Assembly: GCA_016789495.1 (NCBI GenBank)
Contig: JAEUOJ010000130.1
Coordinates: 1-42,173, forward strand
DNA from: Accumulibacter sp.
Lineage (GTDB): Bacteria > Pseudomonadota > Gammaproteobacteria > Burkholderiales > Rhodocyclaceae
Direction: 5' to 3'
DNA: 42,173 nt
Below the pieces are notes generated by a model that was given only the letters and a program-made list of their open reading frames with translations, ran no database searches and was not told the origin of the DNA. Made by a program: the position numbers and the translations under genes. Below, piece by piece: positions 1,434 to 19,186 of the stretch (positions within the stretch are counted from its first letter, which is position 1; every line of letters starts with the position of its first letter).

Positions 1434-1510
1434 TGGCTTCTCCGGTAAGCGTGGGGTCGGTGTCGCACGGAGCGGGACCGTCGTGCGGCAGCCCAAAACG
1501 ACCGAGCCGC

Positions 1511-1550
1511 GTCATATGACACGGCCCGATAAGTGCCGGAAATTATAACA
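1511..1550 (-). promoter_or_regulatory. Possible extended -10 promoter plus palindrome before the transglutaminase-fold gene
   Basis: On the minus strand a perfect TATAAT (1547 to 1542) is preceded by TGT, matching an extended -10 element. It overlaps the stop codon of the PhoH gene. A perfect 10-base palindrome, GTCATATGAC, lies at 1511-1520, just inside the predicted transcript, and could be an operator. No good -35 is visible. The downstream gene may therefore have its own promoter as well as read-through from phoH. Confidence 0.35.
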
Positions 1551-2961
1551 CCTCGCCGGCGTAGTCGGCCAGCCGAGAACGTTCACCACGCTGCAAGGTG
1601 ACGTGGCCGGCATGGCGCCAGCCTTTGAATCGGTCGACGACGTAGGTCAACCCGGAACTGCCTTCGGTCAGATACGGGGTGTCGATCTGCGCGATGTTGC
1701 CGAGACAGATGACCTTGGTGCCGGGGCCGGCACGGGTGATCAGGGTTTTCATCTGCTTCGGCGTCAAATTCTGCGCTTCGTCGATGATCAGATATTTGTT
1801 GAGGAAGGTTCGACCGCGCATGAAGTTCAGCGACTTGATCTTGATCCGCCGTTGCAACAGGTCGCGGGCCGCCGCCCTGCCCCAATCACCGCCTTCCGCT
1901 TCGCCACCGCCGTGGTTGAGCACTTCGAGATTGTCTTCGAGCGCGCCCATCCACGGTCCCATTTTCTCCTCTTCGGTACCCGGCAGAAAACCGATGTCCT
2001 CGCCGACCGGCACGGTCACCCGGGTCATGATGATTTCGCCATAGCGTTGCTGCTCGAGGACTTGCGTCAGCCCGGCGGCGAGCGTCAACAGCGTCTTGCC
2101 AGTGCCGGCTTGACCGAGCAAAGTGACGAAGTCGATCTCGGGGTTCATCAACAGGTTGAAAGCAAAATTCTGTTCACGGTTGCGGGCGACGATTCCCCAC
2201 ACACTGTGGCGCTGATGACTGTAGTCGGTCAGCGTTTCGATCTCGGCGGTCGGGCCATCGATGGTATGAACGATCGCCTGGAAGGGCGGTGGGCCGTGTT
2301 GATAAACGAACTGGTTGATCAACAATTGACTGCACAGCGGGCCGGTGATGCGGTATTGCGTATGGCCGTCCTTTTTCCAGGATTCCATCCCCTGGCCATG
2401 ATGATCCCAAAAATCGGCCGCCAGTTCGTGCATCCCGGTGTACAGCAGATCCGTGTCTTCGAGAACTTTGTCGTTGAAGTAATCCTGCGCCGACAGCCCG
2501 AGCGTGCGCGCCTTGATACGCATGTTGATGTCTTTGGAGACCAGGATCACCGGACGATCGGCATGTTGACGCTGCAGGTGGATCAGCACCGCCAGAATCT
2601 GGTTGTCGGCCTTGGCGGTGGGCAGCGCCGCCGGCAGTTCGCCGGCCATGGCCTCGGTCTGCAGGAACAACCGGCCGCTGGCCAGTTTGCGAGACGGGCC
2701 GAGCAGCGGCACACCCTGGGCAATCCGGCCATCGACACTGTTGATGATCTCGTCGAGAGTACGGGTCACCTGTCGGGCATTGCGCGCGATTTCCGAAATG
2801 CCTTTCTTGTGATTGTCCAGTTCCTCGAGAGTCATCATCGGCAGGAACAGGTCATGCTCTTCGAAGCGGTAGACGCTGCTCGGGTCATGCAGCAGCACGT
2901 TGGTATCGAGCACGAACAACTTGTGCGGCGGTGCTGACGACGGGGAGTTTTGATCGGACAT
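1543..2961 (-). CDS. PIN-PhoH family ATPase (PhoH2/YlaK type)
   Basis: The N-terminus is a PIN nuclease domain (KLFVLDTNVLLHDP, with acidic positions continuing through MTLEELDNHKKG). The C-terminal half is a PhoH P-loop ATPase with Walker A GQAGTGKT and Walker B YLIIDEAQNL. This PIN plus PhoH order is the PhoH2 architecture, known in other bacteria as RNA helicase/ribonuclease proteins that may be linked to toxin-antitoxin function. The start is set at ATG 2961, about 472 residues; an upstream TTG at 2994 is in frame but would nearly abut the bcp stop. It lies 34 bases downstream of bcp, so the two are probably co-transcribed. The family assignment is firm; the cellular role here is not established. 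Confidence 0.93.
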   Translation of the reverse strand: MSDQNSPSSAPPHKLFVLDTNVLLHDPSSVYRFEEHDLFLPMMTLEELDNHKKGISEIARNARQVTRTLDEIINSVDGRIAQGVPLLGPSRKLASGRLFLQTEAMAGELPAALPTAKADNQILAVLIHLQRQHADRPVILVSKDINMRIKARTLGLSAQDYFNDKVLEDTDLLYTGMHELAADFWDHHGQGMESWKKDGHTQYRITGPLCSQLLINQFVYQHGPPPFQAIVHTIDGPTAEIETLTDYSHQRHSVWGIVARNREQNFAFNLLMNPEIDFVTLLGQAGTGKTLLTLAAGLTQVLEQQRYGEIIMTRVTVPVGEDIGFLPGTEEEKMGPWMGALEDNLEVLNHGGGEAEGGDWGRAAARDLLQRRIKIKSLNFMRGRTFLNKYLIIDEAQNLTPKQMKTLITRAGPGTKVICLGNIAQIDTPYLTEGSSGLTYVVDRFKGWRHAGHVTLQRGERSRLADYAGEVL

Positions 2962-2995
2962 GCGGAGGCTTTCCGTTTTTGGGGTCAACGACAAC

Positions 2996-3457
2996 TCAAA
3001 GGCGACGCACCGCGTCGAGCACTTGCTGCGCGTGCCCGGCGACTTTCAGACCGCGCCACTCGCTACGCAACACCCCATGGCGATCGATGACAAACGTGCT
3101 GCGCTCGACGCCGCGCACATCCTTACCGTACATTTTTTTCTGCTTGATCACCCCGAAACGCTGGCAAAGCACTTCGTCGGCGTCCGAAAGTAGCGCGAAA
3201 GGCAATTGCTGCTTGGCCTTGAAATTTTCGTGCGATTTCAGGCTGTCACGCGAAACGCCGACGACCGTCGCTCCAGCCGCGTCGAATTGATCGTGCAGAT
3301 CACGAAAATCCTGCGCTTCGCTGGTGCAGCCGGGCGTGCTGTCCTTAGGATAAAAATAAAGCACCACAATACGCCCACGGTGCGCCGACAAGGTGAAGGT
3401 CTGGTCACCGGTGGCCGGCAAGCTGAAATCGTCTACGCTCTGGTCGATCATCCTCAC
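2996..3457 (-). CDS. bcp: Thioredoxin-dependent thiol peroxidase Bcp (peroxiredoxin)
   Basis: This is a peroxiredoxin of the Bcp/PrxQ class that reduces hydroperoxides in the cytoplasm. The peroxidatic Cys is in the motif YPKDSTPGCTSEAQDF. The resolving Cys found five residues later in E. coli Bcp is absent here (SEAQDF instead of a Cys). The only other Cys is in VLCQRFG, so the protein would work as an atypical 2-Cys or 1-Cys enzyme. At about 153 residues its length is normal. The start is either GTG 3457 or ATG 3451, and the sequence does not decide between them. It is followed closely by the PIN-PhoH gene. Confidence 0.95.
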   Translation of the reverse strand: MRMIDQSVDDFSLPATGDQTFTLSAHRGRIVVLYFYPKDSTPGCTSEAQDFRDLHDQFDAAGATVVGVSRDSLKSHENFKAKQQLPFALLSDADEVLCQRFGVIKQKKMYGKDVRGVERSTFVIDRHGVLRSEWRGLKVAGHAQQVLDAVRRL

Positions 3458-5769: not shown

Positions 5770-6935
5770 CGTCGGCTCCTGGCAGGTAACACACGGCTTG
5801 CTGCAAAAGCCGTGCCATAGACAGAGTACGGTCGTTTGCCGGCGATTCTTTCCAAAAGCGGCAAGCGCTGCCGGAAGGCGGCAACAATCCCCGGCAAGAA
5901 GCGGCTAAAAACTCGCTGGAACTCAAGTCGCCGTCTAAACTGCCGTTGATAGCTGCTGAAGATTGATTTATCGATGCAACGGTTGTTCCGCCGCATCGAG
6001 AGCCAAGAACATGACCTTCATCCTTTGCCCCCTTGACGGCAGCACTCCCCACTTGCCCTGCGGTTGGCAAGCGAGCGTTCCATCGATCCAGCTGGCGCTG
6101 GCGATTGACCCCGGCCAGGTGCGGGCAGCCGCCGATGAACTGCCTCCTCTGTCGCCAATGCCACTGCGGGACGTGTCGATGCGCAGCGCGTGCCGCATCG
6201 AGCAGAACGTCTCGACAATCGCTTCGGCGGTGACCGCGATCCGCCGCGAGGAAATTCAATCACAGAGCTGGCGAACCCGGTCACAAGCGCTGCGCGACCT
6301 AGCCGGGTTTTATATCCACAACGACCGGCATGATGACCTCATCGGTGTGCGCGGCACCGCCCGGCCCCAGAATGGCAACCCGCACATCCCGCTGTTGATC
6401 GGTGGGCAGCGCACCAGCGATCCGCCTGACGATCAGGCACCTGTCGGCATGCTGTCTTTCAGCAAGCAGCGATGCCGCCAGCGCAGCGGCATTTTGCTGC
6501 AGACCGATTGGCAACGGACTGAGCGTGCAGTCTTTCTCCTGGCGCGCGACTCGACAAGACCAGCGACGCCACCGGTGGCAGCCCATTGACCCATACACCA
6601 CAAACGGTGCGCAAATTCCTGCTCTGGCCGCCGCGGCCCCGGTTCGGGCGGCCACTCGGCGGCGAAGGCCAATGGTCAAGCCACCGCAAAACCGGACTCG
6701 CGACGATCGCGCCAGCCCGACAGGCGCTTGGCTACGCGATCGTCAAGCCGCCGCTGCCCAAGCCACACAGCGGTTGCCGCTGGCAATTTTCAGCCCGGGG
6801 AAACCCTCTGTTCGACCGTCGTCACGCCGACCCGGCAGCGGATACGCCCGCTTTGCCAAGTCGAGATCGCTTCACGAAGAATGAATGCACATTCCAGGTC
6901 AACGCGGTCTTTCGTTTTTGAGCGCGCGATCATTG
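5770..6935. other. Long intergenic stretch without a convincing gene
   Basis: About 1.17 kb. Open frames exist on both strands, but none has a ribosome site together with a recognisable fold or start context. The minus-strand frames near 6300-6680 read like broken coding sequence (for example the run ending in PVVVDIKPG at 6299), switching frame several times, which could be a decayed gene. A dispersed-repeat core lies at 6702-6730. The last part holds the putative promoter at 6918-6946. Nothing else can be supported. Confidence 0.4.
6640..6740 (+). repeat. Probable dispersed-repeat copy 4 (right half)
   Basis: The segment 6702-6723 matches 23955-23976 of repeat copy 1 at 20 of 22 positions and ends in a similar CCGACAG. 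The left half is not clearly conserved, so the left boundary is a guess. It lies upstream of the signalling operon, in the gap before the YfiR-like gene. Confidence 0.4.
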
Positions 6936-6946
6936 ATGGATATAGC
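6918..6946 (+). promoter_or_regulatory. Putative sigma-70 promoter before the YfiR-like gene
   Basis: TTGAGC at 6918-6923 and TATAGC at 6941-6946 are separated by exactly 17 bases. The start site would be near 6953. If real, transcription would begin downstream of ATG 6936, favouring one of the later starts of the gene. An AAGGAG ribosome site follows at 6962-6967. Confidence 0.35.
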
Positions 6947-7526
6947 GTTTTTTTGCAAACGAAGGAGTTTCATTACCAGCCATCTCGGCATGCTGGGCAA
7001 CATGGTGTTGGCGCTCGTCTGCTCGATAGCGGCCGCAGCGGAGCACAGGTCGGTCGATGAAGACGCGGTCAAGGCCGCTTATGTCTATAACTTCGCAAAA
7101 TTCGTCGACTGGCCCGATGAACTTTGGAGCAAATCGACCACCGTGCGCGTGTGCGCTACCGGTGCGCGCAACGCCTTTTTTCATGCCCTGACCGCTCTCG
7201 ATCCCCGGTTGTCGATTCGCGGCAAGGAGATCGAGGTGCGGACGATTAGCCGAGCGCATGAAGCGGCGCATTGCCACCTGCTGGTCGTCACCGGCAGCGA
7301 ATCGGTCGGCGAATGGCTGCGCCATGCTCGAACCTTGCCGGTGCTCACCGTCGGCGACGCCGAAGGATTCGCGACAGTCGGCGGCGTCATCGGCCTGTTT
7401 GTCGAAAGAGGAAAAGTGAAGTTCGAAATCAATCAGGACGCCGCCCTGCGCGCCGGCATCAAACTCAGTTCGCGCTTGGTGAAATTGGCGCGACCGGTCA
7501 AGGACGACTCGAAAGACAGCCGATGA
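6936..7526 (+). CDS. YfiR-like (DUF4154) periplasmic protein
   Basis: The protein is a signal peptide (KRRSF, then [17 protein letters not shown]) followed by a DUF4154/YfiR domain: [18 protein letters not shown], a Cys in VRVCATG, a second Cys in AHCHLLVV, and a C-terminal [23 protein letters not shown]. The two Cys match the conserved disulphide pair of this family. In Pseudomonas, YfiR is a periplasmic repressor that binds the sensor domain of the CHASE8 diguanylate cyclase YfiN. The start is uncertain. ATG 6936 gives a basic n-region; ATG 6990 and 7002 are later; ATT 6972 sits four bases behind AAGGAG. The stop overlaps the next gene's start (ATGA at 7523-7526), so it is probably coupled to the CHASE8 kinase. 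Confidence 0.9.
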
Positions 7527-10306
7527 AATATTTGTTCAGCCACCTCCATCGACTACCCGCGATCAAGGACAAACTGCTACGAATTAACCTGATCAGCACC
7601 GGCACGTCGTTTCTGGCGGCGATCGTTCTGCTGATCGGGTTCGACTACCTCAATCTCGGCAGTGAACTGGTCGAAGACGGCAAGGTGAAAGCCGGCTTGA
7701 TCGCGCACCATAGCGTCGCCGCCCTGCTGTTCGATGATAAGCAGACGGCCAGCGAACTGCTCGGCTCACTCAAGGCCGATAAACAGGTCATCCAGGCGTC
7801 GTTGTGGGATGACCAAGGACGCCTGGTTGCCAGTTATCACGCCGAAGCTCATCCCTCACCGCTCTTGCCTTTGCCTAAACAGGGGCACACGCTGGGTTGG
7901 ACGGTGCTCGACATCGCCCTACCGCTGCTCAGCGACGAACAAAGAGTCGGCACCGTTTCACTGCATCTCGACCTGCTGCCGCTTTATCAACGGTTGACGG
8001 AACATGCGCTGTCCTTCTCGCTGGTGATCCTGATCGCCTTGGCAATTTCACAGATTTTTCTTTCCCGGATGAACCGCTTCATCACCGCGCCGATCGACCG
8101 CTTGGTCGACTTGATGGGCAGAGTGTCGCAACAAGGCAATTACAGCCTGCGGGCGAAAATCGAGTCCAACGACGAAATCGGCCACTTGGCCAGCGTGTTC
8201 AATGAGATGCTTGACCAGCTCGCCGAGCGCGACCACCATCTGGCAGCTCATTCCGAGGAGTTGCAAAAAGCGAAGGAGCTGGCGGAAGAGGCCAACCGAG
8301 CCAAGAGCAGGTTCCTGGCGGCGATGAGCCACGAAATTCGCACCCCGATGAACGGTATTCTCGGCATGACCGAATTGTTGCGCGAGACACCGCTTAGTGT
8401 GCAGCAGACGCGTTTTGCCGACGCCGTTTACCAATCCGGCGAACACCTGTTGAAAATCATCAACGACATACTCGATTTTTCGAAGATCGAAGCCGGCAAA
8501 ATGGAAATCGAGCAGATCAACTTCAACCTCCGGCAACTGGTCGAGGATGTCGCCAATCTCTTTGCCCGTCCTGCCGAGCTGAAGCGCGTCGAAATCCTGT
8601 GCAGCGTGCCGCATGACCTGCCGGTCGCGGTCAAGGGCGACCCGATGCGGTTGCGCCAGATCATCACCAACCTGGTCAGCAACGCCGTCAAATTCACCGC
8701 TGAAGGGGAAATCATCATTCGCGTCCAATTGATCGACGAAGATCAACAGCAGGCGACACTCCGCTTCGAAGTCCAGGATACCGGCATCGGTATCGGCGAG
8801 GAAGCGCAAAGCCGGCTGTTCGGCGCTTTCGTACAGGTCGACAATTCGACGACCCGTCGATTCGGCGGCACCGGCCTTGGCTTGGCCATCTCGCGGCGGC
8901 TGGTCGAAATCATGGGCGGCCAACTCGGTCTGGTCAGCCAGGAAAACGTCGGAACGCTGTTCTGGTTTGAATTGACCTTGCCCAAACAGGACGCCGATGC
9001 CCGTATCGTGGTCGATTTGACCGAGCGCCTGAAGGGTTTATCGGTGCTGGTCGTTGACGACAACGCCACCAATCGTGAAATTCTGTCTCACCAGTTGCAA
9101 GGCTGGACAATGCGCTACACCGGTGCAGCCAGCGGTCAGGATGCCCTGCGACTGCTGGAGCGATGGAATGGACACGGCTGTGATCTGGCGATCCTCGACT
9201 TGCATATGCCCGGCATGGATGGTTTCGACGTCGCCCGCGCGATTCACGCCGACCGTCGCTATGCCAGACTGCCCTTGGTGATGCTCTCTTCAGTCAGTGT
9301 CGATGCCACCAACCCGGACCGACAAAGCGCCTCGATCGATTGCTATCTGACCAAACCGGTTCGGCAATCCGACCTCTTCGACGCGATCGCCACCGTCTTT
9401 TCAACGACCCCCGTCCGCTCGTCGCCCCGCGTCGATCCGGCCCTGTCAGCTTCCAAAACAGCCTTGCTTCCGCCCGGAAAGCGGGTGTTGATCGCCGAGG
9501 ACAATCCGGTCAATCAAAGTGTCGCCAAAGCAATGCTCGACTCGTTGAATGTGGCCCATGCCTTGGCCGATAATGGTCGGACGGCCCTTGAGCGCTTGCG
9601 CAACGAATCGTTCGACCTGGTGCTGATGGATTGCCAGATGCCGGAAATGGATGGTTTCGAGGCCAGCCATCAAATCCGTTTGCGTCAGCAGCGCGGTGAA
9701 TTGCCGCCGTCCCTACCGATCATCGCCCTGACCGCCAACGCCGTCGAAGGCGATCGGGAACGTTGTCTGGCAGCCGGTATGGACGATTATCTGAGCAAAC
9801 CTTTCAGCCGCGAGAGCCTGCAGACGATCCTGTCGCGCTGGCTACAGCCTTCGGCCCCGGCTGTCGTCGACACCTCAATTGACCGTCGGCATCCGTCGAT
9901 CGCCGCCAACGACCGCTTTCCGGCGATCGAGACCGCCAATGTGGCGACATTGAATCCACGGGCGCTGGAGACAATCCGCCGCTTGCCCGGCGCCAATGGC
10001 GCGGCACTGGTCGGCAAGGTGATTGCCGCCTTTCTTGACGATACCCCGAACCGTTTGGCACAAATTCGCACCGCGGTCGACAGTGGTGACGCCGACGCCT
10101 TGCGCAAGGCGGCGCACGGCATGAAATCGAGTAGCGCCAACGTTGGCGCCGAAGTGCTGGCGGCACTGTGCAAGGAACTCGAATCGATAGGCCGTGCCGA
10201 TACGGTCGCCGGTGCGGCTGAATTGCTGAGCCGCGCCGACACGGAACTCGAAAAAGTAATCGCCGCGCTTTGCGAGGAACCAGAGTGTCTGGCGGTGATC
10301 CGATGA
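7523..10306 (+). CDS. CHASE8 hybrid histidine kinase with two receiver domains and HPt
   Basis: This membrane kinase has 927 residues. Order: TM1 about 23-43; periplasmic CHASE8-like sensor ([13 protein letters not shown], then [14 protein letters not shown]); TM2 about 162-182; HAMP; HisKA with phospho-His 270 ([11 protein letters not shown]); HATPase ([25 protein letters not shown]); REC1 with Asp 559 ([10 protein letters not shown]); REC2 with Asp 703 ([10 protein letters not shown]); HPt with His 865 ([14 protein letters not shown]). All phospho-acceptor residues are present, so it can run a full His-Asp-His relay. It starts at ATG 7523, overlapping the YfiR-like stop. Pairing a YfiR-like protein with a CHASE8 sensor mirrors the YfiR-YfiN pair, but with a kinase output instead of GGDEF. 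The next gene, a binding protein, follows after 49 bases. Confidence 0.95.
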
Positions 10307-10355
10307 GCCATCGGCATCCGCTCCGGCTTGTCTTGCTTTTTTCCTGGAGTTGGTG

Positions 10356-11111
10356 ATGAAGAAATCAGCTGTCATCCTTTCCGCACTGATGCTGGCGGCG
10401 GTGGTGGCACACGGTGGGGAAGAGATTCGTGTCGGTGGCGGCGGCGCGGCGATGCTCGGCGTGTTCCAACCGGTGAAGCCTCATTTCGAAAAAGCAACCG
10501 GCATTGCCCTGATCAATCTTCAGTCCTCCCCCAAGGGCGGGTTGGTCAATTTGCTCGAAGGCCGCGTGGACCTCTCGGCCGCCGCCCATTCGCTCGACAG
10601 CATCCTTTTGGCCTTGGCTGCGGACAGGATGTCGATCGACAAATCGCAACTGGTTGAACATCGTATCGGCATCAACCGGACCACGGTGATCGTTCATCCG
10701 AGCAATCGCGTCTCCCAACTCAGCCGGGAGCAGCTCAAAGGGATATTCACCGGCAAGCTCAGCAACTGGCAAGAGGTCGGCGGCGACGACCGGGAGATCC
10801 TGGTCGTCTGGGGACGGGGCACGCCTGGCCAGAACAGCGAATTCATCACCCGGGTGCTCGACGGCGAGTCAGTCACCAAGGATGCCCTCGAATCAACCAA
10901 CTATAACGAGATCAAGGAAACGGTGGCTGCGACGCCGGAAGCGGTGGGGATCAATCCAAAGAGCGTTGCCGATTCGACGATTCGGCTGGTGGACACCGAT
11001 GCGCCCCTCTCGACACCGATTGTCGCCGTCACCCTGGGCAAACCATCGGCAAAAGTACGCAAACTTCTCGATTACCTGCTCGGCGAAGGCCGAGCTCACA
11101 TCCGTCAATGA
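10356..11111 (+). CDS. PstS-like periplasmic substrate-binding protein
   Basis: The protein is a 251-residue secreted binding protein of the PBP/PstS superfamily. The signal peptide is MKKSAVILSALMLAAVVAHG. The mature start is EEIRVGGGGAAMLGVF, followed by a glycine-rich anion-binding-like loop. RTTVIVHPSN, LKGIFTGKLSNWQEVGG and GTPGQNSEFITRVL are typical of phosphate-type binding proteins. No permease or ATPase genes are nearby. It starts at ATG 10356 with GGAG seven bases upstream. Its position between two kinases, only 48 bases from the second, suggests that it senses an anion and presents it to a kinase, as TorT does for TorS or LuxP for LuxQ. That role is inference; the ligand is not known. 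Confidence 0.9.
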   Translation: MKKSAVILSALMLAAVVAHGGEEIRVGGGGAAMLGVFQPVKPHFEKATGIALINLQSSPKGGLVNLLEGRVDLSAAAHSLDSILLALAADRMSIDKSQLVEHRIGINRTTVIVHPSNRVSQLSREQLKGIFTGKLSNWQEVGGDDREILVVWGRGTPGQNSEFITRVLDGESVTKDALESTNYNEIKETVAATPEAVGINPKSVADSTIRLVDTDAPLSTPIVAVTLGKPSAKVRKLLDYLLGEGRAHIRQ

Positions 11112-11159
11112 GAGCTTATTCACGGCACCACGGTCAATGAGCTCCGAGCGATCCAGCCG

Positions 11160-14100
11160 ATGAACATCCGCCACAAATTGTTGTTCTCCGGGGCGGTGAC
11201 TGTGCTGGGCATCGCCACCATCTCGGGCGTCAGCCTATGGGGGATGCGGCTCGTAGAAGATCAATTGCTGGTATTGATCGAGCACGCCACACCCCACCAA
11301 CTGCGTAGTCTCGAATTGCAGCGCAGCCTGCAAGAACAAGTCACCGACCTGCTCAAGGTGGCGGCTGCCGAAACTTCCGACGATCTGCGGGCGGCGGGCC
11401 GCGACGCCGAAAAAAGCGCCGCCGAAACTTCACTGCTGGAAAATACCCTGATTCTGCTGGATGGTAACCGTGTCAATCAAGATACTCGTCAAACCATCCG
11501 TCAATTGCAAAGTTTGTCCACTGAAACGCTAGAGGCAACGACCGAGCGACTGCGCGCCGAGGAAGCAGCACGCCAGGCGGCGGCGGTAGTGCGGGTCCGC
11601 TTGCAGGAAGTGGCTCGACGGCTCGGCGAACTCAGCACATCGATGAACGCCCTGGCGGCGCGGCAGATCCTGCAAACCAATGAAAAAGCCCGCGCATTGA
11701 CGCAAGAATTGAGCGACATGACCGACGCTCGCGACCTGCTCAAGGACGTCCAGTTCGCGCTGATCGAATTACGCAAGGCCGATTCCCGCAAAGAGCTACT
11801 GATTGCCCGCAGCAAACTCGACACCGCATTCAACCGATTCGCCAAAAATCGATTGGTGGCCAATGAGTACCCGGGAATTTTGGCGACCAAACGTGTGCTC
11901 GACGAAATCCGCGCGCTGAGCGGCGCCACCATCGAGGCGCAAAACGCCCTGATCCGCCAAGGCGGCGATAACGACAATGAACTGGAGCAGACCTTCAATC
12001 GGCGGATGCAGGAACTCGAAAGCCGGATGAACGTGGCAACCGCCACCCTCGGTCAGGAAATCACGCTGCTCCAGGCGCGCCATTCCTATCAAAGCGACGC
12101 GCGTGACGCTTCGCTGCAACAATCGATCGTCACTGGCGACACGGTGACACTCAATGGCGCGCTGATTTCACTCAATCTTCAAATCAGCATTTTGAGTCAG
12201 GAGTTACTGGCCGCACGCGCGCGGCCAGAATTGGCGCATCTCACCGCCCGACTCGGCAGCGCACTGAACGACAGCCAGGCAATCTGCAAAAAACTGCGCC
12301 GGGTCCTGGCCACCGCCTCGCCAGTCGAATTACGTCAACTCGACGCCGTCGCTGATGCGTTGACCCGCATCGGGCACGAGTTTCTCGGCAAGCAGGGCAT
12401 CGTCGATCAATTGCATCAAGGACTGGCGGTTCGTCAAAAAGCCCAGGCGATCGGGCAACGTCTGCAGGCTCTGGCCTCTCAACACCGCAACCAGGGCCGT
12501 CAAGGAATCGCCGCCACGGAGTCGGCACAAGAAGCGGCAATGATGTCATTACGAAAAACCATGTTGCGCAACGAAACGGCGATGATGCTTGCCGCGCTAC
12601 TGGCCTTGCTGACCGTGGTCGTAGGCGGCATCCGGATCATCAGAGCACTGACCGAACCGACCGCCCGCTTACTGGCCTTGATGCGCCAAGTATCACAAAG
12701 AGGCGATTATGCGATGCGGACAGGCATCGACTCCGGTGACGAGATTGGTGAACTGGCCGCCGGGATCGACCGGATGCTCGACCAGATCGAAGGTCGCGAT
12801 CAGGAGCTGGCCAAACATCGTGATCAGCTCGAACAGGATGTGCTGGCGCGCACCGCCGACCTGCAACAGGCCAAAGAACTCGCCGAAGCCGGCAGCCGGG
12901 CAAAAAGCGACTTTCTGGCGACGATGAGCCATGAAATCCGTACCCCGATGAACGGCATTCTCGGAATGACCGAATTTCTGGGCGGCACGACGTTGACCCC
13001 GCAGCAACAGCGTTTGAACGACGCCGTATATCGCTCGGGCGAACATTTGTTGGCGATCATCAACGACATTCTCGATTTCTCGAAAATCGAGGCCGGAAAA
13101 CTTGAAATCGACGATACCGTTTTCGATCTGCACGAACTCGTTTCCGATGTCGCCTACCTGTTCGCCTCGCCGGCCGAAACCAAGGGTTTGCGCTTGAGTT
13201 GTGTGCTGGCCGACGATTTGCCACGTGCGGTACGCGGCGATCCGCTCCGTTTGCGCCAGATTCTCAGCAATCTGGTGAATAACGCCGTCAAATTCACCGA
13301 AAGCGGTTCAATAACCATCGATATCAGTTCGATCGGCGAAAATCAGCGCGGAATACGCCTGCTTTTCTCGGTCACCGACAGCGGTCTCGGCATCTCCGCG
13401 CAAGAAAGAAATCGTCTGTTCACCCCCTTCAGCCAAGCCGACAGCTCGACGACCCGTCGCTTCGGTGGCAGCGGTCTGGGGCTGGCGATCGCCAAACGAC
13501 TGGTGGAAATGATGAGCGGTGAAATCGGACTGGATAGCGAGCCCGGTCGCGGAACACGGTTCTGGTTCGCGTTGACGCTGCGTCAGGTGACCAGCCCGAT
13601 GCCTGCCACCGCCATGGTCGCCAAAGAAACGCCCACCCGGGTCACGCCGTTGGCCGGGCATATCCTGATCGTCGAAGACAATCCGGTCAATCAAGCCGTT
13701 GCCGTCGCTATGCTCGAATCGCTCGGCTTGACTTACGCGCTGACCGAAAACGGACGTCAGGCCCTTGAGCGGGCGTCGAACGAACGTTTCGATCTGATCC
13801 TAATGGATTGTCAAATGCCTGAAATGGATGGGTTTGCCGCCACGGTCGAACTGCGCGCCAAGCAACGTGCGGGTCTGCTGCACGAACCGCTGCCGATCGT
13901 CGCGCTGACTGCAAACGCCGTAGCCAGTGATCGCGAACGCTGTCTGGCTGCCGGAATGAACGACTATCTCAGTAAACCGTTTCGACGCGATCAACTGATG
14001 ACGACACTGGCGCGCTGGTTGCCACGGCTGGCCCTGTCGGCGCATCCCACCGATCCGGTGGCGCTGCCCGGTATCACCCCGGCACCAGACGAAACGCTGA

Positions 14101-14486
14101 TCGACCACGGCGCACTCGATAACATCCGGCAGTTGCCAGGAACCGACGGTAACCGGCTGGTGGATCGGGTGATCGATGCCTATATTAAGGACACGCCGCT
14201 GCGCCTATCGCAATTGCAGGCTGCCAATCTGGCCGGCGACCTGCAAGCGCTACGCAAAGCAGCGCATACCCTCAAATCGGCCAGCGCCAACGTCGGCGCC
14301 AAGCGGTTGTCCCGGCTGTGCCAGGAAATCGAAGAAAGCGCCCGAAATGGCCATTTCGACGGCATTTTAGAACGGCTGACCAGCGTCAATGACGAATTTC
14401 CGCGTGTGCGGGTGGCACTCGACGCGCTGCGACACAACACTTGTGCCTTTCCTTCAATGGCCGGGGAAACCGGTCAACTTTCCTGA
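11160..14486 (+). CDS. Hybrid histidine kinase with long helical sensor, REC and HPt
   Basis: The protein has 1108 residues. TM1 is about residues 7-28; the periplasmic region of about 440 residues is rich in Leu, Ala, Gln and Arg and looks like helical bundles, in the style of TorS-type sensors. TM2 is about 474-494, followed by HAMP, HisKA (His 591 in [11 protein letters not shown]), HATPase ([25 protein letters not shown]), REC with Asp 883 ([10 protein letters not shown]) and HPt with His 1036 ([14 protein letters not shown]). It has one receiver fewer than the upstream kinase. It begins 48 bases after the PstS-like gene, which suggests that the binding protein is its periplasmic partner. 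Its phosphorelay residues are intact. The output partner is not known; the REC-PAS-GGDEF-EAL gene downstream is a plausible one. Confidence 0.95.
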
Positions 14487-14677
14487 GTGCTCCTGACCAC
14501 CAATCCACTCGCCAATAGGGATTGGGTTAGAATGAAAAGTTACTATTTTTATCATGCTCAAACACTCGCTCTCGTCATCGCCTCTCTCGAATCATTCATG
14601 CCGTGAGTCCTTACTCTTTCAGTCCGGAACGCCATTCCCGCTTTTATCTGGCGTTCCCGGCGACGGGATCGGCGTCG
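14487..14677 (+). promoter_or_regulatory. Intergenic region with inverted repeat and weak promoter-like sequence
   Basis: A 7-base inverted repeat (CCAATCC at 14500-14506, GGATTGG at 14519-14525) follows the second kinase. It could be a terminator stem or an operator. A loose promoter-like stretch (TTGGGT near 14523 and TATTTT 16 bases further on) lies in an AT-richer section. This may allow the third kinase to be transcribed separately. The support is weak. Confidence 0.25.
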
Positions 14678-16888
14678 ATGACCACTAACACCAGTAACAT
14701 CACGAATCCGGGCACGGAGCTGCTCCAACAGCGTTTGGCCGCGCAAATGCTGCATTTGGCTTATTCGCGCCTGTTGCTCTCGGTGGTGTTGTCCTTGGCG
14801 GTAACCCTGCTGTTCATCGACCTGCTGCACCCCTATTTCAGCCATGAGCGTTTGTTCCACGTGGCGCTGGTGATCCTGTCGGTCAATCTCTGCCGCCTAG
14901 CGCTATGGTTTTGGCACCGCCACTTCACGCCTGACGACGAGGCGACCCCCATCTGGGCACGACGATTTTTCATTAGCGCCATCGCCGCCGCCGCCGCGTG
15001 GTCGTTCAGCGTCGTCTGGCTGCTCGAAGGCGCCGGCGGCATCGAAATGGCGTTCCTGATCGTCTGGGTGATCGCCGTCACCGCCGTCGCCAGCACCTCT
15101 CTGGCCTCTCATCTCCCTTCGGTGGTCTCATTCGTGATTACCGCCTTGCTGCCGATCGGCACCTCGTTGCTGATCGACGGAAACGGCATGGTGCGAATCG
15201 TCGGCTTGGCGGTTTACGGAGCGCTGATCGCGCTGGTCCTGACCGCTTATACCAGTTACACCACCACCCGGAAAATCTTGCTCGGCGACATCGAACGTTC
15301 TGCAGCGCTGGCCGAAGCCGCCGCCGCCCGCCAGACGGCGGAAGCCGCCAGTCAGGCGAAAAGCGATTTTCTCGCCACCATGAGTCATGAAATTCGTACG
15401 CCGATCAACGGCATCATCGGAATGACCGAGCTGTTGCGCACCACCCCCCTCTCCGCCAAGCAACAACGCTTCGCCGATGCCGCCCATCAGTCGGGACAAC
15501 ATTTGCTGGCGATCATCAGCGACATTCTGGATTTTTCCAAGATCGAGGCCGGCAAGCTTGAACTCGAGCGCATCCCGTTCAGTTTGCTCGAACTGATCGA
15601 CAGCATCGAGACACTGTTTGCGCCGGTGGCGGCGGCCAAGGGCTTACGGCTGACATGCGATATTCCGGCCGATCTGCCAGCACAGGTGATCGGCGATCCG
15701 GTGCGCCTGCGCCAGATTCTGAGCAATCTAATCAACAATGCCGTCAAATTCACCGATAGCGGTGGTGTCAAAGTTCGCATAGGTACGTTACGCCAGGATC
15801 AATCAACAGTCATCTGCCGTTTCGAAATCGAAGACAGCGGCGTCGGGATCAGCGAGCAGGAACAGGGAAATCTATTCAATGCCTTCGTCCAGGCTGACAG
15901 CTCGACGACGCGTCGCTTCGGCGGCAGTGGCCTCGGACTGGTGATCGCCAAGCGTTTGTTGGCCTTAATGGACGGTCGGATCGGTCTGCAAAGTCAGCCC
16001 GGCCAAGGGACATTGTTCTGGTTCGAATTGCCGCTCGGCAAGCCCATTCTTCCCGAATTGCCAGGAGTATCGACACCGAGACGGGACGATTCGCCGATAC
16101 CGACGACACTCGGCGGCCGAGTACTGGTCGCCGAGGATAACCCGGTCAATCAAGCGGTTGTTTCAGCGATGCTAGAATCGCTGGGCGTTGTTTGTCAGCT
16201 CGCCGAAAATGGCCGTATTGCCGTCGACCGCCTGCAGACCGACTCTTTCGACCTGCTGCTCATGGATTGTCAAATGCCTGAAATGGATGGATTTTCAGCG
16301 ACGGCCATTATTCGTGAACGTGAACGGGCCGCTCACCGGTCCAAAAAATTGCCCATTGTCGCGTTGACCGCCAACGCTGTCGCCGGAGATCGTGAACGCT
16401 GCCTGGCGGCTGGCATGGATGACTATCTCAGCAAACCGTTTACGCGCGAGCAACTGTCGAGCATTCTGGTGCGCTGGTTACCGCGCGAGGTGGTCTGTGC
16501 GGCACCTCCGGCAACCTGTCCGCCAGATGCTGTGCCGCTGACCTTGCCCGCCCTCGACCCGACATCCCTCGACACTTTCCGACAGATGCCGTCAGCCGAT
16601 GGAGTCTGCTCGTTCAACAAAGTGATCGCAGCCTACCTGGCCAACACACCGCGGCAATGGCAGCGCCTTTGCGCCGCCGCGAACGCCGGCGACCGGCAAG
16701 CATTGCGCACGGAGGCGCGCGACTTGGTTTCAAGCAGCGCCAATGTCGGCGCCGCGCGCTTGTCCGCCCTCGCCCGCGAGTTGGAAGTCATCGGCGGCAA
16801 GGGCCTGATCGACGACGTAAAACCAATATTAACCACTTTCGAACAAGAATTGACGCGCGTCCTCGCCGCCTTGGCCGCCCTCAAATGA
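14678..16888 (+). CDS. Membrane hybrid histidine kinase with a degenerate HPt-like domain
   Basis: The protein has 736 residues. An N-terminal region of about six hydrophobic membrane segments replaces a periplasmic sensor. HisKA follows with His 237 ([14 protein letters not shown]), then HATPase ([25 protein letters not shown]) and REC with Asp 530 ([10 protein letters not shown]). The C-terminal domain aligns with the HPt domains of the two upstream kinases (SSSANVGA core), but the phospho-His is Arg 681 and the neighbouring Lys is Val ([14 protein letters not shown]). The Arg codon is CGC at 16718-16720. It therefore cannot relay phosphate by its own HPt. The start is ATG 14678; an upstream GTG at 14603 is in frame but adds a stretch without conserved character. 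It ends 12 bases before the GGDEF-EAL gene. Confidence 0.93.
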
Positions 16889-16900
16889 AGGGACTCCACA

Positions 16901-19027
16901 ATGCCCATGAGTGAAAATCGCGCGCTGCCCGTGGCCCTGATCGTCGACGACGATTACGTGATGCGCATGCTGGAACGGGAAACACTGGCTCAATTCGGCT
17001 TTGAAGTGGTCGAAGCCGAAGACGGCGAACAAGTATTGGCGATGTTCGACCAATCGCCACCCAATCTGGTCCTGCTTGACGTCGAAATGCCGGGAATAGA
17101 CGGCTTCGAGGTCTGCAAGCGCTTGCGCCAGGTCTGGGACATGACGCATGTGCCGGTAATCATGGTCACCGGCATGGACGACCTGGCGTCGATCAACCGC
17201 GCCTACGATTCCGGCGCCAACGACTTTGTCGCCAAACCGATCAACTGGCCAATCCTCGGGCATCGGGCACGCTACGTATGGCGTTCGGCGCAGGCCGCCC
17301 GTCAACTGAACGAGCTCAAGGAAAAGCAGGCGGCGATCATGCAGGCGATTCCGGATATGATTTTCGTGATCGATCGGCAAGGCGTCTATCTCGATTACAA
17401 AGAGGGTTTTGCCACCACGGCGTTCGTTCCGCCAAACGAGTTCCTCGGCAAAAACATGACCGAAGTCCTCCCCGCCGAGACGGCGACCCTGATTCAGCAG
17501 CACATCAATCAGGCCTTGCTGCAGAACAATTTGCAATCGGTGGTATACAAATTGCCGCTCGCAGACGGCATTCATCACTACGAAGGGCGGATCGCTCCCA
17601 ATGGCAGCGACAAAGTCGTGATCGTCGTGCGCGACATTACCGCCCAGAAACTGAACGAAGACCGCATCCGACGGCTCGCCTACTTCGATACACTGACCGG
17701 CATGCCCAACCGGCAAAGTTTCCTCGAACGGCTCGACAGCGAGCTGTTGCGCGCGACTCGCAGCAAACGCCGGGTCGCCCTGCTGTTTCTCGACCTCGAC
17801 GGTTTCAAGCGCATCAACGACACCCTCGGACACACCGTCGGCGACTATCTGCTGCAAGCGGTCGCTGAACGGATGAAGGAGAAATTGCGCACCAGCGATT
17901 TCATTTCCCGACCGGCTTTGGACGACAGCAGTCTGCACTTTGCCCGACTCGGCGGCGACGAATTCACCGTTGTTCTGCCCGACGTGGATGATGTGCAGAC
18001 GGTCAGTTTGGTGGCGGCGCGTCTGCAAGCCTTGCTGTCTCAACCATTCGTCATCGGCCCCCAGGAAATTGCCGTCACCTCGAGTATTGGCATCGCCATC
18101 TTTCCGGCCGATGGCGAGGACGGCGCGACGCTGCTCAAGCACGCCGATACCGCGATGTACCACGCCAAGGATCAGGGGCGCAACAATTGGCAAATGTACG
18201 ACCAATCGCTGACCACCCGCACCAGCGCCCGTCTGGCACTTGAAAGCGACATTCGCAAAGGGCTCGAACGCGGCGAATTCTATTTGCTGTACCAACCGCA
18301 GGTCGATGCCGAAAGCGGACGGATCGTCGGCGTCGAAGCCTTGATCCGTTGGCAACATCCGGAACACGGCGTCGTTTCACCAGCCCAGTTCATCCCGGTG
18401 GCCGAAGAAAGCGGCCTGATCGTCCCGATGGGCGAATGGGTGCTCAACGAAGCATGCTCCCAGGTCGTTCGCTGGCAGGAGCGCGCCGCGAACGCCCCGC
18501 GGGTGGCGGTCAATATCTCGGCCCGGCAGTTGCGCAGCGCCAATTTCCTTGACAAGGTCGCCGCCACGATCATCGCCACCGGTATCGCACCCGAACGACT
18601 GGAGCTGGAACTGACCGAAAGCATCCTGATGGACCCGGAAGCGCGGCAGGTCCAGGGGCTGTATCGTCTTCGGCAACTCGGCGTGCATTTTTCGATCGAC
18701 GACTTTGGCACCGGTTATTCATCGCTGTCCTACATCAAGCGCTTTCCGATCGGCATGCTCAAGATCGACCAGAGCTTCGTCCGGGGACTGCCGGACAGCG
18801 TCAACGACGCTGGCATCGCCACCGCGGTAATCGCCATGGCGCGCAACATGCAACTGGAAGTGATCGCCGAAGGGGTCGAAACGCTGGCGCAGCTCGAATT
18901 CCTTCGCCAAGCCCAGTGCCCGAAAGTTCAGGGCTATCTTTTCAGCCGCCCCCTGGCGGCGGACGATGTCGAAAATCTGCTACGTGCCGGCAAAATCGTA
19001 TTGCCCGAGTCAACGACCGTGCCCTGA
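16901..19027 (+). CDS. Response regulator with PAS, GGDEF and EAL domains
   Basis: The protein has 708 residues. REC covers about 10-125 with acidic triad VDDDY and Asp 60 (LLDVEMPGIDG). A PAS domain follows (about 145-255), then GGDEF at 351-355 and EAL at 479-481. The GGDEF active motif is intact. The usual inhibitory RxxD sits as RTSD but is separated from GGDEF by 17 residues, not 5. The EAL domain has all the usual catalytic residues visible (EALIRW, NISARQL, ELTESIL, DDFGTGYSSL, KIDQSFV, EGVET). Diguanylate cyclase and phosphodiesterase activities are both possible. It begins 12 bases after the third kinase with AAGGGA before ATG 16901, so it is the likely output of the block. Which activity dominates cannot be told from sequence. 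Confidence 0.95.
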   Translation: MPMSENRALPVALIVDDDYVMRMLERETLAQFGFEVVEAEDGEQVLAMFDQSPPNLVLLDVEMPGIDGFEVCKRLRQVWDMTHVPVIMVTGMDDLASINRAYDSGANDFVAKPINWPILGHRARYVWRSAQAARQLNELKEKQAAIMQAIPDMIFVIDRQGVYLDYKEGFATTAFVPPNEFLGKNMTEVLPAETATLIQQHINQALLQNNLQSVVYKLPLADGIHHYEGRIAPNGSDKVVIVVRDITAQKLNEDRIRRLAYFDTLTGMPNRQSFLERLDSELLRATRSKRRVALLFLDLDGFKRINDTLGHTVGDYLLQAVAERMKEKLRTSDFISRPALDDSSLHFARLGGDEFTVVLPDVDDVQTVSLVAARLQALLSQPFVIGPQEIAVTSSIGIAIFPADGEDGATLLKHADTAMYHAKDQGRNNWQMYDQSLTTRTSARLALESDIRKGLERGEFYLLYQPQVDAESGRIVGVEALIRWQHPEHGVVSPAQFIPVAEESGLIVPMGEWVLNEACSQVVRWQERAANAPRVAVNISARQLRSANFLDKVAATIIATGIAPERLELELTESILMDPEARQVQGLYRLRQLGVHFSIDDFGTGYSSLSYIKRFPIGMLKIDQSFVRGLPDSVNDAGIATAVIAMARNMQLEVIAEGVETLAQLEFLRQAQCPKVQGYLFSRPLAADDVENLLRAGKIVLPESTTVP

Positions 19028-19151
19028 CAGCCGTCATCAACCTGTTCAGGAACATCGCCACCGGACCGTCAACTGACATAACGGACACGACGCTTACCGC
19101 ACACCGGCTGAATCACCGTGCCAGGGCCGGTGGGGGTAAGAATCGATCCGT

Positions 19152-19157
19152 TATAAT
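19152..19157 (+). promoter_or_regulatory. -10 element before valS
   Basis: A perfect TATAAT sits 30 bases before the valS start. No good -35 appears at the 17-base position (GGTGGG there), so the promoter assignment is tentative. A separate promoter would fit a housekeeping gene after a signalling operon. Confidence 0.45.
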
Positions 19158-19186
19158 TTTCACTTTTCTCCTCCAAACGCCCATCC

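Follow-up and report, generated by a model that had tools for sequence, protein, structure and literature searches.

YfiBNR of Pseudomonas aeruginosa combines YfiR with a CHASE8 membrane protein, and TorT–TorS combines a binding protein with a long helical sensor on a hybrid REC–HPt kinase; TorT belongs to a different binding-protein class from the PstS fold. In RocS1–RocR and PvrS–PvrR, a sensor kinase is paired with a response regulator carrying an EAL domain, and neither is known to have a multi-sensor array on one relay core or a PAS domain with a GGDEF–EAL tandem. RocS1–RocR has been described as a sensor kinase with a response regulator (PMC8623646), and binding proteins serve as signals for histidine kinases in AioXSR, ArxXSR and ArrXSR, where AioX is PhnD-like and its output is a transcription regulator (PMC5908839). 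An in silico analysis of 2012 noted YfiR beside CHASE8/PAS–HAMP membrane proteins with kinase, HPT, GGDEF–EAL and MCP outputs, and its section 12, which includes a hybrid kinase with YfiR–CHASE8 in Thauera, describes neither an array nor sensor exchange (PMC3375315).

We analyzed a 42,173-nucleotide stretch of DNA from Ca. Accumulibacter (the window) with a block of six co-directional plus-strand genes (6885–19027, by Pfam scan and ORF ends), best read from its sequence as kinases with periplasmic inputs that may act on a c-di-GMP regulator by phosphorelay. Like YfiBNR, the block has YfiR beside a CHASE8 membrane protein, but its output would be a separate REC-PAS-GGDEF-EAL regulator common to several kinases, and it has no YfiB. 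It shares with TorT–TorS the binding protein and the long helical sensor on a hybrid REC–HPt kinase, but the binding protein has the PstS fold and no TorR lies in the block. Word searches of the open-access literature found no description of such an array, nor of DUF4154 together with a histidine kinase or TorS with McpZ. The earlier note had seen no description of this combination, which holds for the array but not for its YfiR–CHASE8 kinase part; the expandable many-to-one array appears new, whereas YfiR–CHASE8 kinase units have been known since 2012.

Results

Organization of the six-gene block

The block contains the following features.

6885..7526, + strand: YfiR-like periplasmic protein (DUF4154; Pfam PF13689, E 8e-37)
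7523..10306, + strand: HK1, a CHASE8-HAMP-HisKA-HATPase-REC-REC-HPt hybrid kinase (Pfam; ATGA overlap with yfiR)
10356..11111, + strand: PstS-fold periplasmic binding protein (PBP_like_2; Pfam PF12849, E 2.9e-14)
11160..14486, + strand: HK2, an N-terminal sensor of ~480 aa followed by HAMP-HisKA-HATPase-REC-HPt (Pfam)
14603..16888, + strand: HK3, a membrane-sensor hybrid kinase, HisKA-HATPase-REC with a degenerate HPt (Pfam; residue check)
16553..16873, + strand: the HK3 HPt domain, which lacks the phospho-acceptor His (residue check)
16901..19027, + strand: RPGE, the REC-PAS-GGDEF-EAL regulator (Pfam; motif check)
10229..14737, + strand: segment with the binding protein (PBP) and HK2, in place of which the sister locus L062 has ~180 bp (blastn)

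The plus-strand order and short gaps described in the earlier note were borne out by the Pfam scan and ORF ends: yfiR and HK1 overlap by 4 nt, the gaps after HK1 are 49, 48, 116 and 12 nt in order, and 159 nt separate RPGE from valS (19187). Pfam detected no DNA-binding regulator inside the block, again as claimed, and no yfiB (OmpA/Pal lipoprotein) among its proteins. The most likely start of HK1 is ATG 7523, and the TTG ORF listed at 7271 is an artefact; yfiR may start at 6885 or, as in the earlier note, at 6936, and ATG 14678 is a possible start of HK3. Every part of the block scored above its Pfam cut-off, so that chance is not an issue, the weakest being the HPt of HK3 (29.0 versus 24.6 bits), and all receiver, kinase and c-di-GMP motifs checked were intact except in this HPt. 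Scans for promoters and terminators found about as many as in shuffled sequence (4 versus 4.0 and 15 versus 15.6, respectively), so it is the gaps and the overlap that argue for an operon. The window had no Rfam matches.

YfiR and HK1

The YfiR-like protein scored far above the Pfam cut-off for DUF4154 (126.9 versus 24.9 bits). Its best NCBIfam match, NF053591 (TOL_0243 family YfiR-like), fell just under the cut-off (117.2 versus 125 bits), the equivalog model for the sequestration protein YfiR gave 32.7 bits (cut-off 85), and the match to P. aeruginosa YfiR structures had an E value of 0.0025. The sensor part of HK1 scored 161.9 bits against NF053592 (sensor histidine kinase, YfiR-like protein-associated; cut-off 194); the block thus has the same family pair as TOL_0243 and its associated kinase, but under both cut-offs. 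A phmmer search of PDB sequences with the HK1 sensor gave no match. As in YfiBNR, a CHASE8–HAMP partner gene, HK1, adjoins yfiR, but this CHASE8 protein lacks a GGDEF output and continues into HisKA-HATPase-REC-REC-HPt, keeping the HPt His and the Asp of its last REC (residue check). HK1 is presumably the partner of YfiR.

The PstS-fold protein and HK2

The model of the binding protein (pLDDT 90.7) matched PstS 4exl in Foldseek (E 8e-21), giving it the PstS fold, and scored 69.8 bits against TIGR02136 PstS (cut-off 206.6). The phosphate loop of PstS is RxxGSGTR-like; at this position the binding protein reads WGRGTPGQNS, and its homologues vary. It is presumed to carry a ligand to HK2, whose HPt is intact, with the phospho-acceptor His, and whose long periplasmic sensor is all-helical (model pLDDT 81, pTM 0.49). 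The best fold match of this sensor in Foldseek was McpZ (8f7n; E 3e-6, TM by target 0.54), which is a chemoreceptor, whereas HK2 is a kinase with an adjacent binding-protein gene. TorS (3o1h, 3o1i and 3o1j) matched with probability 1.00 and TM by target 0.55–0.61 but with rmsd 9–12 and E values of only 0.007–0.02, and an E value of ~0.01 is no better than that of unrelated coiled coils in the same list, e.g., Rad50 (7.5e-4). Relatives came from the fold search alone, as phmmer found none among PDB sequences (best E 0.51). HK2 reached 461.2 bits against TIGR02956 (TorS) over residues 169–1089 (cut-off 676.5), and HK1, with a different sensor, reached 509.7 bits, indicating that this score mostly reflects the kinase core and is not sensor-specific.

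The binding-protein/helical-sensor pair has a chemoreceptor output in 7 of 13 loci and a kinase output in the block, and in Geobacteraceae and Nitrospirota bins several relatives come with a chemoreceptor. The kinase form was found in 2 of 28 Accumulibacter genomes, taking the best-scored candidates per genome, and in a search of 398 Pseudomonadota genomes (own included, at most three best candidates scored in each) the HK2 sensor was found in the window only, a depth at which absence counts for little. The relevant part of a paper on Geobacter sensing has nothing on such a pair (PMC8396549).

HK3

The kinase part of HK3 lies behind a TM region (six TM segments by a crude hydropathy count). 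The HisKA His, N-box Asn and REC Asp are present in all three window kinases. The HPt-like domain reported for HK3 in the earlier note was recognized by the Pfam Hpt model, but it has Arg at the position of the phospho-acceptor His and Val at that of the nearby Lys. HK1 and HK2 keep this His, and in all 22 of the 24 subtype-A kinases (those with the HPt subtype typical of kinases beside the regulator) do so. HK3 is the one kinase of the three with no route for phosphate through an HPt of its own, which qualifies the phosphorelay proposed in the earlier note. HK3-type kinases that do have the HPt His adjoin the regulator in loci L062, L065 and L066. The L065 kinase lacks part of its ATPase domain.

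RPGE and the sign of its output

RPGE, the presumed common output of the block kinases, has intact REC, GGDEF and EAL motifs, including the REC Asp and, in EAL, the motif and the N, DD, K, E and Q catalytic columns; the RxxD I-site is absent. Among 36 related regulators, all kept the EAL motif, 22 had a canonical GGDEF and none had RxxD at the I-site column. GGDEF was intact in all 15 window-type regulators, while in a sister array in the genus 7/7 regulators read DGD[AS]F and have an intact EAL. Of the NCBIfam models, the five that matched RPGE best were phosphodiesterases, although far under their cut-offs and partly scoring the GGDEF. The universal EAL, set against the 22 canonical GGDEF motifs, favors a probably phosphodiesterase-led output, which sharpens the earlier claim of c-di-GMP control; the intact GGDEF of RPGE leaves the sign unsettled.

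Distribution in Accumulibacter

The earlier note had made its proposal depend on recurrence of the gene order, and this was not borne out: among the best-scored candidates per genome (18, up to 78, and 23 in three scans), the exact six-gene order was found in only 1 of 28 Accumulibacter genomes, its own, with sub-orders conserved. The regulator was present in 17 genomes, and in 15 of these 17 loci an adjacent upstream kinase, in one case a remnant, carried a single HPt subtype (A). Both were present in 15 genomes, the regulator only in 2, the HPt subtype only in 3 and neither in 8 (Fisher p 0.0033), an association that is partly circular, because subtype A was defined from regulator-adjoining kinases, and that comes from non-independent genomes of one genus. 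The regulator lacked the HPt subtype in G007 and G020, the latter still reading VMLET at the REC specificity positions. Conversely, four regulator-less genomes had a trace of subtype A; three (G004, G015 and G022) held only short HPt ORFs of 128–175 aa, and G010 (L143) had an intact subtype-A kinase. Subtype-A kinases lay away from the regulator in G009, G023 and G025, arrays had decayed in G015 and G022, and G009 had a remnant kinase. The sister locus L062 was collinear with the window in two blastn blocks (7049–10228 and 14738–19005) and lacked the PBP–HK2 segment.

Histories of sensors and relay cores

Sensor classes were scattered on the relay-core tree (12 changes versus a minimum of 6). 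A single clade was rejected for the CHASE8 cores (AU p 2.8e-87) and class c5 (p 3.6e-5) and not rejected for the HK3-sensor (p 0.077) and HK2-sensor cores (p 0.147). The history of the sensors differs from that of the relay cores, by sensor exchange or by gene conversion between neighboring cores; the trees fit both, and the relay core is uniform either way. HK2 and HK3 had the longest end branches of the 24 subtype-A cores (0.74 and 0.57).

A separate HPt subtype belongs to a paralogous array, whose regulators read M[VIL]LES (7/7) at five Spo0F-numbered REC specificity positions, compared with VMLET in 13/15 window-type regulators. The kinase–REC covariance envisaged earlier was run as a distance-matrix (mirror) comparison of 24 HPt–regulator pairs, too few for residue coupling, and did not single out HPt–REC: rho was 0.60 for HPt–REC versus 0.78 for HPt–EAL, and the partial correlations were 0.21 versus 0.64. 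This indicates a shared history, with no sign of direct HPt–REC coevolution in these pairs.

CHASE8 proteins beyond the genus

In all 48 non-own places of the class scan, CHASE8 outputs were kinases in 35 (26 hybrid), GGDEF–EAL in 11, MCP in 1 and none recognized in 1, and YfiR adjoined the CHASE8 gene in 37. For 8/35 CHASE8 kinases, the same strand carried a REC-GGDEF-EAL gene no more than 1 kb downstream, and three more were fusions, with CHASE8-HAMP-HisKA-HATPase-REC(-REC)-HPt-REC-PAS-GGDEF-EAL in one polypeptide (L165, L209 and L210; Pfam), L210 with YfiR upstream (first 39 places assigned by script, last 9 by hand). These single-polypeptide fusions are the strongest argument that the relay leads to the regulator. 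Along with recurrent gene triads, the single HPt subtype beside the regulator and orthologous loci, they make the earlier proposal of a periplasmic-signal phosphorelay onto c-di-GMP the best reading.

Discussion

The block is probably an expandable many-to-one phosphorelay governing c-di-GMP, most likely through its breakdown. YfiR would target the HK1 CHASE8 domain in the way it acts on YfiN, the PstS-fold protein would dock onto the helical sensor of HK2 like TorT on TorS, and HK3 would respond to a cue in the membrane or inside the cell. After autophosphorylation, every kinase would hand phosphate to the last of its own REC domains, from where it would go to an HPt. HK1 and HK2 would use the HPt they carry themselves; HK3 would have to borrow one or drain phosphate. 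The HPt would then phosphorylate the REC of the REC-PAS-GGDEF-EAL protein. In evolution, the antennae would change while relay core and HPt remain matched to one REC.

The same relay might have the opposite sign, with phosphorylation mainly activating GGDEF and the array raising c-di-GMP like YfiN released by YfiR. The intact GGDEF of RPGE and its window-type relatives, the missing I-site, by which product inhibition would be absent, and the fact that YfiN is a cyclase (PMC3375315) speak for it, but GGDEF decays among related regulators and in the sister array while EAL never does, and the NCBIfam matches, with the reservations above, point to phosphodiesterases; we consider this sign rather unlikely. 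It is also unlikely, somewhat more so, that YfiR, HK1 and the regulator alone form a working unit, with PBP–HK2 and HK3 as recent or decaying passengers. The degenerate HPt of HK3, the long end branches, the absence of PBP–HK2 from the sister locus and its rarity in the genus, and the decayed arrays and remnant kinase elsewhere would fit, but HK2 and HK3 keep open frames (1108 and 761 codons) and their HisKA, N-box and REC residues, the HPt of HK2 is intact, and HPt-His-bearing HK3-type kinases adjoin the regulator elsewhere, including the partly truncated one of L065.

That the kinases are neighbors by history and signal mainly to other regulators is improbable: the genome has 73 receiver-domain matches, subtype-A kinases occur without or distant from the regulator, and the distance test does not favor HPt–REC pairing, but against it stand the single-chain fusions and the triads across the CHASE8 class, and three of the four regulator-less genomes with a subtype-A trace hold only short HPt ORFs. 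As for the ligand, phosphate cycling (polyphosphate) is well known in Accumulibacter, and with its PstS fold the binding protein might be a phosphate sensor linking this cycle to c-di-GMP. We regard this as very doubtful, given the divergent loop and low TIGR02136 score and the relatives paired with chemoreceptors in Geobacteraceae and Nitrospirota, lineages not known for polyphosphate cycling.

For the many-to-one phosphorelay that we favor, the data suggest a plug-in system in which a lineage adds or swaps sensors and the output is not rewired. A bolder version, held tentatively at somewhat below even chances, is that a relay core matched to one regulator has repeatedly mounted foreign antennae, including the binding-protein/helical-sensor unit, which several other bacteria use to drive chemotaxis receptors and which would here have been converted to c-di-GMP control, with HPt-His-less kinases kept as modulators that borrow a neighbor's HPt or drain phosphate.

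Accumulibacter drives phosphorus removal in the flocs and granules of wastewater treatment, where c-di-GMP probably matters; in the open-access papers found to contain both Accumulibacter and c-di-GMP, neither term appears in any title or abstract. According to a 2022 review, SBP_bac_3 was the sole Pfam periplasmic-binding-protein family with studies on its part in c-di-GMP networks (PMC8846402). If the proposed reading is true, one binding-protein sensor unit would serve chemotaxis in some relatives and c-di-GMP in others, and one genus would provide a natural series in which the same output has one, two or three sensors with exchanged antennae. With its natural insert/empty-site pair, the addition of inputs to a c-di-GMP decision without crosstalk would be directly testable.

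The six-gene array and its sister locus

Pfam matches and translations bore out the six genes in the order that the earlier note had given, all on the + strand: yfiR, the CHASE8 hybrid kinase HK1, the PstS-like binding protein PBP, the helical-sensor kinase HK2, the membrane kinase HK3, and the REC-PAS-GGDEF-EAL regulator RPGE. The HK1 start was most likely ATG 7523, giving a 4-nt overlap with yfiR. A residue check found the HisKA, N-box, and REC residues of HK3 all intact; in its HPt domain, Arg replaces His and Val replaces Lys three residues further on. Promoter and terminator scans of the window gave no signal above the shuffled-sequence level. The genome is 3.26 Mb and 87.6% complete.

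The sister locus L062, in genome G006, was collinear with the window in two blocks (blastn), and the 4.5 kb carrying PBP and HK2 in the window faced ~180 bp at the same place in L062.

Array features and collinear blocks in the window
7049-10228, +, collinear block YfiR-HK1, 70.7% DNA identity to L062
10356-11111, +, PBP
11160-14486, +, HK2
14738-19005, +, collinear block HK3-RPGE, 73.7% DNA identity to L062
16901-19027, +, RPGE

The spacer before HK3 (14487-14602) has no counterpart in L062, where HK3 directly follows HK1; it is possibly a secondary promoter, although one lacking consensus support. Upstream of its array, L062 shares with the window the transglutaminase, PhoH, and AhpC genes (66-3457 in the window), but inverted in orientation relative to the array. 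In the window, valS is next after RPGE at a distance of 159 bp (19028-19186) with no GGDEF-domain gene between, whereas a GGDEF-domain gene is next after RPGE in 16/16 other Accumulibacter loci.

Variable arrays around a recurrent regulator

RPGE was present in 17 of 28 Accumulibacter genomes, the window's own included: 14 further genomes carried full-length orthologues (63-83% identity), and it was split or partial in G023 and G027. The 16 non-window loci were fetched and mapped with home-built profiles. The kinase immediately upstream of RPGE carried an HPt of one subtype, termed A (motif INPRALDxIRQLPG..., 15 further residues not shown), in 15 of the 17 loci, a remnant in L064 included; L072 and L075 were without it. 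Arrays contained one to three subtype-A kinases, some of them broken, and the window contained the most. A complete YfiR-CHASE8 kinase-(others)-RPGE arrangement was seen in the window, L062, L068, and L069, and in L065, L073, and L079 the CHASE8 kinase was present but no yfiR adjoined it. The exact six-gene order was seen only in the window among the 28 genomes, which do not show a conserved six-gene combination.

Three further loci appeared to be array remnants with the regulator missing: a lone HPt ORF (L142, G004), HPt and REC ORFs ahead of a GGDEF gene (L144, G015), and a fragment of REC-EAL accompanied by an HPt ORF (L145, G022). A subtype-A kinase far from the regulator (L147 8051-10849, G009) had Tyr for the HPt His, the second such loss. 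The window's own genome encoded a second YfiR-CHASE8 hybrid kinase, REC-REC-HPt, on contig C166 (L162 7018-10545); its HPt scored 72.8 bits against the subtype model, and no REC-GGDEF-EAL gene was found in the 4.3 kb up to the contig end.

RPGE as the proposed target of the relay

Direct support for the regulator as a kinase target came from L165, L209, and L210, in which CHASE8-HAMP-HisKA-HATPase-REC(-REC)-HPt-REC-PAS-GGDEF-EAL is encoded in one frame of 1627-1672 codons (Pfam-confirmed). These loci were among those of a class-wide scan with a kinase sensor as query, which matched in 36/274 genomes. Of its 50 rows, 2 came from the window's own genome, and the remaining 48 places were all retrieved and mapped. 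The CHASE8 outputs were kinase at 35, GGDEF-EAL at 11, MCP at 1, and unrecognised at 1, the kinase share being biased upward by the choice of such a query. An adjacent yfiR was present at 37/48 places. Besides the three fusions, 8 of the 35 CHASE8 kinases had a same-strand REC-GGDEF-EAL gene within 1 kb downstream; in one of these, L197, another REC ORF intervenes.

Across the 28 genomes, RPGE and subtype-A HPt occurred together in 15, RPGE only in 2, HPt only in 3, and neither in 8 (Fisher p 0.0033), or 15/2/1/10 (p 5e-5) with the short HPt ORFs of G004 and G015 taken as absent; both p-values are optimistic, since kinases next to the regulator served to define subtype A and congeneric species are not independent samples. 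The G022 HPt fragment (88.9 bits) was scored absent in both counts. The covariance check suggested by the earlier note, run as a distance-matrix mirror test on 24 HPt-regulator pairs, did not reveal a specific HPt-REC pairing: rho was 0.60 for HPt-REC versus 0.78 for HPt-EAL, with partial correlations of 0.21 versus 0.64. Since the HPt-EAL correlation was the higher, the co-divergence reflects common history.

Pointing the other way, towards a specific pairing, a paralogous array in the genus, made up of YfiR, a CHASE8 kinase, and a REC-GGDEF-EAL regulator, plus a second membrane kinase in L073 and L074, carries a different HPt subtype (HTLKSSSATVG). At five Spo0F-numbered REC specificity positions, its regulators read M[VIL]LES (7/7), versus VMLET in 13/15 window-type regulators; the exceptions were L067 and L075. 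Of the two loci without subtype-A HPt, L075 thus departs from VMLET and L072 keeps it. In L073 and L074, two paralogous YfiR/CHASE8 c-di-GMP arrays lie back to back; GGDEF is intact in one of the two and reads DGDSF in the other.

Different sensors on a uniform relay core

Mapped on a tree built from 24 subtype-A cores and three outgroup rows, seven sensor classes required 12 changes, against a minimum of 6; shuffling gave a mean of 14.2, and 9/200 shuffles reached a count as low. Placing CHASE8 cores (p 2.8e-87) or class c5 (p 3.6e-5) in a single clade was rejected; for cores with the HK3 sensor (p 0.077) or the HK2 sensor (p 0.147), a single clade was not rejected. The HK3-type sensor sits on a REC-REC core in L066 and on a single-REC core in the window and L062. 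Sensor exchange could account for this distribution, and gene conversion between adjacent cores would produce it equally well.

Two ~1800-aa CHASE8 hybrid kinases (L170 7640-13060 and L176 2943-8252) had four consecutive HPt-model matches and a final REC; an unrecognised repeated domain may underlie these matches.

The HK2 sensor and its binding protein

The binding protein has a PstS fold (structure model and Foldseek). The HK2 sensor was modelled as all-helical (pLDDT 81, pTM 0.49), and Foldseek ranked the sensor of McpZ first (E 3e-6, TM by target 0.54). TorS, from TorT complexes, also matched (probability 1.00), but at E about 0.01 and among unrelated coiled coils (Rad50, MukB), making the likeness to McpZ the firmer statement.

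Binding-protein loci numbered 21, of which the 12 best (L041-L052) were mapped and nine weaker matches left out. The same helical sensor adjoined the binding protein in 10 of these best 12; it was not found in L049 or in L048 (8.9 kb downstream covered, upstream cut). An MCP output followed it in L042, L044, L045, L046, and L047, called by a home-built profile in all five and by Pfam in L042, L044, and L047. A kinase followed in L041 (a G027 contig), a GAF domain in L051 (Pfam), and nothing recognised in L052; contig ends cut the output in L043 and L050. In Accumulibacter the pair is rare (4/28 genomes), joined to a kinase in two (window, G027) and to a chemoreceptor in two (L077 and L078; G006, G009). 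The 13 pair loci, namely these 10, the window, L077, and L078, therefore gave MCP 7, kinase 2, GAF 1, unrecognised 1, and cut 2. From this distribution and the fold, we read PBP and the helical sensor as a unit often wired to chemotaxis and here to a hybrid kinase. At L042 8742-11174 (Geobacteraceae), three tandem binding-protein genes lie upstream of one same-sensor chemoreceptor.

Output activity of the regulator

Motifs were compared in 36 regulators (15 window-type, 7 paralogous-array, and 14 others), two broken window-type genes, in L076 and L079, having dropped out. The EAL motif was intact in 36/36, once as EAV; GGDEF was canonical in 22/36, plus one GGDEY, and all seven paralogous-array regulators had DGD[AS]F. 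RxxD at the I-site column occurred in 0/36, four rows being gapped there. We favour phosphorylation-controlled phosphodiesterase activity as the probable output, with GGDEF either contributing a second activity or acting as a GTP-sensing regulator, a role with precedent in other proteins.

Membrane proteins of 995 and 1020 aa (L154 2173-5157 and L155 4083-7142) carry a PAS-GGDEF-EAL ~70% identical to that of RPGE, the former being a 7TMR-DISM protein (Pfam). This version occurs in genomes with and without RPGE (without: G003, G004, G011, G024); the output module, too, seems to move.

Relation to known systems

Malone et al. 2012 (PMC3375315) already present the YfiR-YfiN core as modular, with kinase, HPT, GGDEF-EAL, and MCP outputs, including a hybrid kinase in Thauera. 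Both a YfiR-like protein and the kinase associated with it have models in NCBIfam. Binding-protein kinases have precedents in TorT-TorS and in AioX-type systems (PMC5908839), as does a kinase paired with a regulator of RPGE's output class in RocS1-RocR (PMC8623646). Searches of the open-access literature found no account of an array in which one relay core carries several exchangeable sensors and serves a single REC-GGDEF-EAL regulator; YfiR-CHASE8 kinase outputs, by contrast, already appear in PMC3375315.

The block is confirmed and its parts are recurrent, but it is a variant of known parts. The strongest proposal of the earlier note, one module through which periplasmic signals would control c-di-GMP, is likely. 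Whether by sensor exchange or by gene conversion, the antennae differ on a relay core that stays uniform. The interest of the system lies in the variability of the array rather than in a conserved six-gene combination.
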